A DNA stretch of 64,000 bases, taken from Gemmatimonadaceae bacterium. GTDB lineage: Bacteria > Gemmatimonadota > Gemmatimonadetes > Gemmatimonadales > Gemmatimonadaceae. The stretch is from the NCBI GenBank assembly GCA_019752115.1, contig JAIEMN010000024.1, forward strand, positions 186,001 to 250,000, read 5' to 3'. The position numbers and the translations under genes are program-made. Shown piece after piece: positions 54,311 through 54,382 of this stretch (position 1 is the first letter of the stretch; each line of letters opens with the position of its first letter). The notes beneath the pieces are model-generated. The model worked only from the letters and a program-made list of their open reading frames with translations, had not been told where the DNA came from and ran no database searches.

Positions 54311-54382
54311 TCAGCCCCAAAGCTTGACGTCGGCAACAATGACCGACCAAAGCGCATTCACGAGCTGGGCCATGAAGTCCAT
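54311..54382 (-). CDS. Candidate 23-residue small protein
   Basis: ATG 54382 to TGA 54311 encodes a 23-residue peptide beginning MDFMAQLVNALWSV and ending VADVKLWG. GGGAGG lies eight bases before the ATG, stronger than the site of nearly any gene nearby. The peptide is amphipathic with two Trp, no Cys, and a net charge near -1. It lies 48 bases upstream of the HD-GYP gene on the same strand. It could be a leader peptide, a membrane-bound regulator of the HD-GYP sensor or a signalling peptide. No homologue is recognised. Confidence 0.5.
   Translation of the reverse strand: MDFMAQLVNALWSVIVADVKLWG

Follow-up and report, generated by a model that had tools for sequence, protein, structure and literature searches.

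The 64,000-nucleotide stretch of Gemmatimonadaceae DNA analysed here (hereafter the window) carries a very short open reading frame (ORF) directly ahead of a gene for a membrane HD-GYP protein, which raises the question of whether this frame is a functional leader and, if so, by what means it could act on the gene that follows.

A short ORF with a strong ribosome-binding site precedes an HD-GYP gene

The leader ORF comprises 23 codons (54311..54382, read from 54382 to 54311 on the minus strand) and encodes MDFMAQLVNALWSVIVADVKLWG followed by a stop codon, with Trp as the penultimate residue; its frame is kept within the genus, while the ending W-(X)-stop is kept class-wide. The plus strand of the same span encodes nothing notable. 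The initial annotation, which gave no strand, had described a 23-codon ORF with GGGAGG eight bases before its ATG, and exactly this arrangement is found on the minus strand, with GGGAGG at 54391-54396 and the ATG at 54380-54382. The Shine-Dalgarno (SD) sequence of the leader is GGGAGGUGA (54388..54396, minus strand), in which GGGAGGTGACG is invariant in a 23-sequence alignment of the genus, and its extended form, GGAGGUGA, is the full complement of the textbook 16S anti-SD, UCACCUCC, which may differ from this genome’s own. In most loci outside the genus, GG(A/G)GGTGA serves as the leader SD. An in-frame GTG at 54391 was also considered as the start codon but is probably not used, as in most relatives the ATG is preceded, at a distance of a few codons, by an in-frame stop.

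The ATG of the HD-GYP gene lies at 54262, 48 bases past the leader stop and thus at the distance originally reported. This gene (52928..54262, minus strand) encodes a membrane protein of 444 aa with a MASE9 domain (PF20972, E 2.6e-5; a match just above the cut-off, at 24.7 versus 24.3 bits) and an HD_5 domain (PF13487, E 1.7e-32). On the other side of the leader is a gene of unknown family (54567..55625, minus strand), for which zero matches were found in Pfam or NCBIfam and which is present upstream in 107/120 loci across the class. Its C-terminus is conserved around VLDATNRW, and the gene is probably not part of the switch proposed below.

The leader is under coding selection

When 60 related genomes were searched, 25/29 other genomes from the genus proved to encode the leader peptide (48-92% identity), with the HD-GYP ortholog just beyond it in the loci inspected; in these 60 genomes the single-sequence peptide query gave no match in any other genus. 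The 21 unique sequences from the genus contain zero indels and have the stop codon at a constant place, and pN/pS is 0.454 in the leader’s own frame, whereas the two shifted frames give 0.826 and 1.303. The initial annotation had held that a frame or ribosome-binding site lost from related genomes would speak against the ORF; both frame and ribosome-binding site proved to be conserved. The peptide also has the two Trp residues attributed to it, of which W12 varies within the genus while W22, the next-to-last residue, never changes.

Within the genus, one segment of the ORF, GCCCAGCTCGT, hardly changes at the nucleotide level, which indicates that a constraint on the RNA exists and would suit a frame that is open by accident inside a conserved RNA and has no coding function. 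Such an accident is effectively ruled out by the frame-specific pN/pS. It also sits poorly with the leaders found elsewhere, which range from 14 to 39 codons and use three different stop codons, yet in which the distance from the ATG to the terminal UGG, although variable, is always in frame. Since the Trp end and the frame are kept despite these changes in length, a constraint on RNA pairing alone is insufficient, and the probability left to an accidental frame is negligible. Selection on the reading frame indicates that the leader is translated, and it is almost certainly a selected element that acts in cis.

The leader lies within a conserved structured RNA

In alignments of the upstream region, conservation extends far beyond the leader ORF, which sits within a structured RNA of ~240 nt (about 54514 to 54271, minus strand). 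Compared with dinucleotide-shuffled sequences, the full-length element has the more stable fold in 99% of 115 loci (mean z -2.86). It is closed by a stem, P1, between the arms of which lie, in order, a GAGCGGAGCUGAGCGGGC block, a GAGCGGAGCCAACC block, a variable hairpin (P4), the SD and the ORF. The 5' arm of P1 (AGAAGUCCCCGCCAACCGU; 54495..54513, minus strand) pairs at -28.9 kcal/mol in the window with the 3' arm (CCGGCUUGGCGGGGACCCCUUCUC; 54271..54294, minus strand), which follows the leader stop and lies just before the HD-GYP start, and the two arms covary. Across 102 loci, the arms of one locus pair with each other at -35.8 kcal/mol, versus -27.8 kcal/mol for arms swapped between loci (z -18.9), and an ungapped test inside the C/G run gave 0.661 paired versus 0.544 +/- 0.016 for permutations; both tests drew on conserved C-runs and G-runs, so a large share of the pairing energy is common to the loci and specificity lies only in the excess. 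The distance from the leader stop to the 3' arm is 0-23 nt, mostly within 10, whereas a median of 0 was obtained with wide windows of sequence, which favour long duplexes.

The G-run in the 3' arm of P1 is the only SD-like sequence for the HD-GYP gene in the window. It is followed by a U/C-rich tract that precedes the gene, the 10 nt past the G-run being 41% T and 38% C versus a background of 20% and 29%, respectively. A general intrinsic terminator was nevertheless not adopted as an explanation, as the U-tract is strong in some loci but weak in the window, so that termination is not general.

Within the closing stem, the conserved GAGCGGAGCUGAGCGGGCAGGCC block (54469..54491, minus strand) contains a candidate hairpin, P2, the pairing of which was derived from RNAalifold and from reading of the alignment. 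In the genus (54469-54513 and relatives), the candidate 5' strand of P2 (CCCGUCA) shares bases with the inner portion of the P1 5' arm, and P1 and P2 may be mutually exclusive in the manner of a switch. Further along, GAGCGGAGCCAACC (54447..54460, minus strand) is invariant in the genus and, from the alignment and predicted fold, is the predicted partner of the leader SD region in a third helix, P3, which shows almost no covariation as both of its sides are nearly invariant. Hairpin P4 (AGCACGUG...CGUGACU; 54406..54440, minus strand) does covary, with 97.8% of cells paired, changes on both sides in 7 pairs and a covariation score that was reached by 0/500 shuffles.

The near-invariant blocks and covarying helices recur across a family of sequences, as they would if the 5' domain were a ligand-binding riboswitch with the ORF as its expression platform, a reading that is compatible with the explanation preferred here. 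However, Rfam returned zero family matches, riboswitches included, at gathering and even at permissive thresholds (the only match being a chance, snoRNA-like one), and a strong SD together with its mask can account for the blocks that are most conserved; a riboswitch is accordingly considered rather unlikely.

The window’s own genome contains one significant copy of the RNA, and a mobile element or multicopy RNA was rejected given this single copy and zero matches in viral contigs or plasmids. One UBA2094 contig (G003; loci L010 and L231) has the RNA and leader twice in tandem with an N scaffold gap between them, which may be an assembly artefact. The suggestion of a regulatory leader in the initial annotation has strong support: the ORF occurs in one copy per genome, immediately ahead of the same HD-GYP gene in every case, and sits in a conserved structured RNA with a closing stem that ends at the leader stop codon.

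The peptide C-terminus is conserved across the class

Trp is one of the last two residues in 107/121 distinct peptides by unbiased count, or in 110/121 once three ORFs mis-picked by the script are corrected (a correction made with the expected end known), compared with 67/2303 interior residues (3%). In addition, 73/88 peptides from outside the genus have D, G or E four residues ahead of this Trp, the conserved C-terminal pattern being [A/G/S]-[D/G/E]-x-x-x-W-(X)-stop, and conserved residues near the C-terminus of the class-wide peptides occupy fixed positions relative to the stop. The shift of W from position -2 to -1 corresponds to exactly one codon, and eight loci end in WW. The remaining 11/121 peptides are without a terminal Trp, for example those of genus g9, which end in SI, QL or QI. 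In loci L157, L160, L164, L170 and L279 (mainly genus g9, family f2), the leader is kept while the terminal Trp is replaced by SI, QI, QL and similar endings, and these leaders offer a natural test case for the role of Trp. A related group (L116, L178 and L239) lacks the terminal Trp and carries GGW(I/M) in its place, four to five residues ahead of the stop.

A terminal Trp codon that is almost always present, and doubled in the eight loci ending in WW, could point to attenuation, with the leader sensing charged tRNA-Trp. Leaders of the trpL type, however, have a run of such codons upstream of biosynthesis genes, while here the Trp codon is usually single, the downstream gene encodes an HD-GYP protein, and genus g9 has lost the Trp yet kept the leader (MLQLLAFLFTAVAKLFFADGTVSI and similar). 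We know of no link between HD-GYP proteins and tryptophan metabolism, and tryptophan-codon attenuation is considered improbable.

Beyond the genus, the peptides differ widely in body and length, while W-(X)-stop and the distance from it to the stem are retained, a combination that fits a function on the ribosome better than that of a free peptide. The same divergence is why two other suggestions of the initial annotation, a membrane modulator and a secreted cue, gained no support. As a free small protein, the peptide would be a MASE9-domain membrane modulator or a secreted cue, in keeping with its hydrophobic, amphipathic character and its encoding beside a membrane sensor, but it is the C-terminus and the position beside P1 that persist, the ORF is always in cis, and a separate signal peptide was not evident when the peptide sequences were read by eye. 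A free small protein is thus given only a very slight chance.

The element recurs across families of the class

A covariance model built from the genus matched 111/179 genomes and 30/35 genera of the family at E<=1, although some matches were weak and the E-values are rough owing to a short calibration. In 40 loci from other genera, wherever the sequence suffices, an SD, a short ORF and then an HD-GYP ortholog are found beyond the RNA, although these and the other counts are not independent, as the loci are related by descent, and many of the surveyed genomes are incomplete metagenome assemblies. A wider model, R2, which has only 10 pairs and works mostly as a sequence profile, gave weak matches in other families, and 16/20 of those fetched show the same arrangement or its visible part. 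Three weak R2 matches (L171, L174 and L175) have neither leader nor HD-GYP gene and were discarded as chance. Searching with the N-terminal domain of HD-GYP and reading the upstream sequence revealed further leaders in several families of the class; a simple scan for an SD and ORF found no leader in three MASE9-HD-GYP relatives of the class (L290 in G102, L293 in G358, and L287). The unit that recurs across families consists of the folded RNA, a strong SD, an ORF of 14–39 codons and a MASE9-HD-GYP gene, with the HD-GYP ortholog immediately after the RNA wherever a locus has room for it.

Scanning 84,980 species genomes for the pattern gave 68 stretches, almost all of which carry the label Gemmatimonadota. 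Loci L187, L189, L195, L217, L224 and L229 carry the element under the labels Chthoniobacterales, Nitrospiraceae, delta proteobacterium, Sandaracinaceae or Kuenenia, and these labels look like errors of binning or naming.

A proposed leader-peptide switch

The explanation that we favour, and consider somewhat probable as a whole, is a cis-acting leader-peptide switch for the HD-GYP gene in which control through P1 is combined with slowing of the nascent chain. Its first part, that translation of the leader controls HD-GYP through P1, is probable on comparative grounds, while the second, that the nascent chain slows its own release, is plausible and about evenly balanced. We infer both the direction of regulation and stalling at the leader stop from the arrangement of the sequences. 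With P1 formed, HD-GYP expression would presumably be off, as P1 would mask the G-run, the sole SD-like sequence, and/or terminate transcription together with the U/C-rich tract. The strong SD of the leader would be held by P3 and freed under some condition, whereupon a ribosome pausing at W-(X)-stop would occupy the foot of P1 and keep it open. Open P1 would in turn permit HD-GYP expression via reinitiation, SD exposure or antitermination. The slowing itself may be due to the pattern [A/G/S]-[D/G/E]-x-x-x-W-(X)-stop, which would delay release of the nascent chain as in TnaC or SpeFL.

Translational coupling could operate without nascent-chain arrest, if the ribosome ends beside P1, melts it and reinitiates at HD-GYP, with regulation entering via masking of the leader SD by the folded 5' domain. 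The HD-GYP start lies a median of 34 nt past the leader stop, a recognisable independent SD precedes it in only 7/41 loci, and the leader SD is predicted to be paired, all of which suit coupling. However, coupling leaves unexplained both the Trp at the last or next-to-last codon in 110/121 peptides and the D, G or E four residues before it, and it is regarded as a minority possibility. Returning to the switch with nascent-chain slowing, it is possible, though this is put forward tentatively, that a c-di-GMP phosphodiesterase is gated by the structured RNA together with a putative arrest motif, [D/G/E]-x-x-x-W-(X)-stop, an arrangement that would constitute an undescribed, class-wide class of element with a new termination-arrest motif.

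Relation to known leader peptides and significance

Comparable logic is found in TnaC, the 24-residue leader of the tna operon, on which the ribosome stalls with a stop codon in the A-site and thereby alters the fate of the downstream transcript, and in which a conserved Trp (residue 12) and Asp (residue 16), four apart, are both needed (PMC8429421). Similarly, SpeFL, an ornithine sensor of some gammaproteobacteria, is a short leader in which arrest at termination controls the downstream gene (PMC8429421). Like TnaC, the element described here has a short leader directly upstream of the gene, with Trp and an acidic residue or Gly spaced four residues apart. In contrast, the last residue of TnaC is Pro and its output is Rho access, whereas Trp is here last or next-to-last and the proposed output is a long covarying stem; moreover, Asp follows Trp in TnaC, while the acidic or Gly residue precedes it here, and homology is not claimed. 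SpeFL differs in both the peptide and the downstream gene. As in these systems, a short ORF with an SD lies directly upstream of a gene, and selection argues that it is translated; the element would therefore share the logic of TnaC and SpeFL but not their sequence and, being known here by sequence comparison, is not filed as a member.

Likenesses are also seen in other lineages. For example, the mycobacterial B12 riboswitch likewise joins a structured RNA to translation of a small upstream ORF, but the RNA, ligand and gene are different (PMC11260477). In Corynebacterium, a conserved RNA-like region, the ilvB-II motif, proved to hold a regulatory upstream ORF; there it belongs to a biosynthesis operon rather than a c-di-GMP enzyme, and it is not known to be embedded in a class-wide structured RNA (PMC10272879). 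A search of the open-licence literature found the present element described nowhere.

To our knowledge, only a few lineages and a few genes are served by leader peptides acting at termination. The single leader family described here, with its near-universal terminal Trp, extends class-wide through environmental bacteria and accompanies just one c-di-GMP-type enzyme, with well over a hundred natural variants defining which residues matter. It also points to an RNA family and to roughly a hundred small ORFs missing from standard annotation. If stalling does occur at the leader stop, the element would represent a new arrest motif and would link the state of translation to c-di-GMP turnover in these bacteria.
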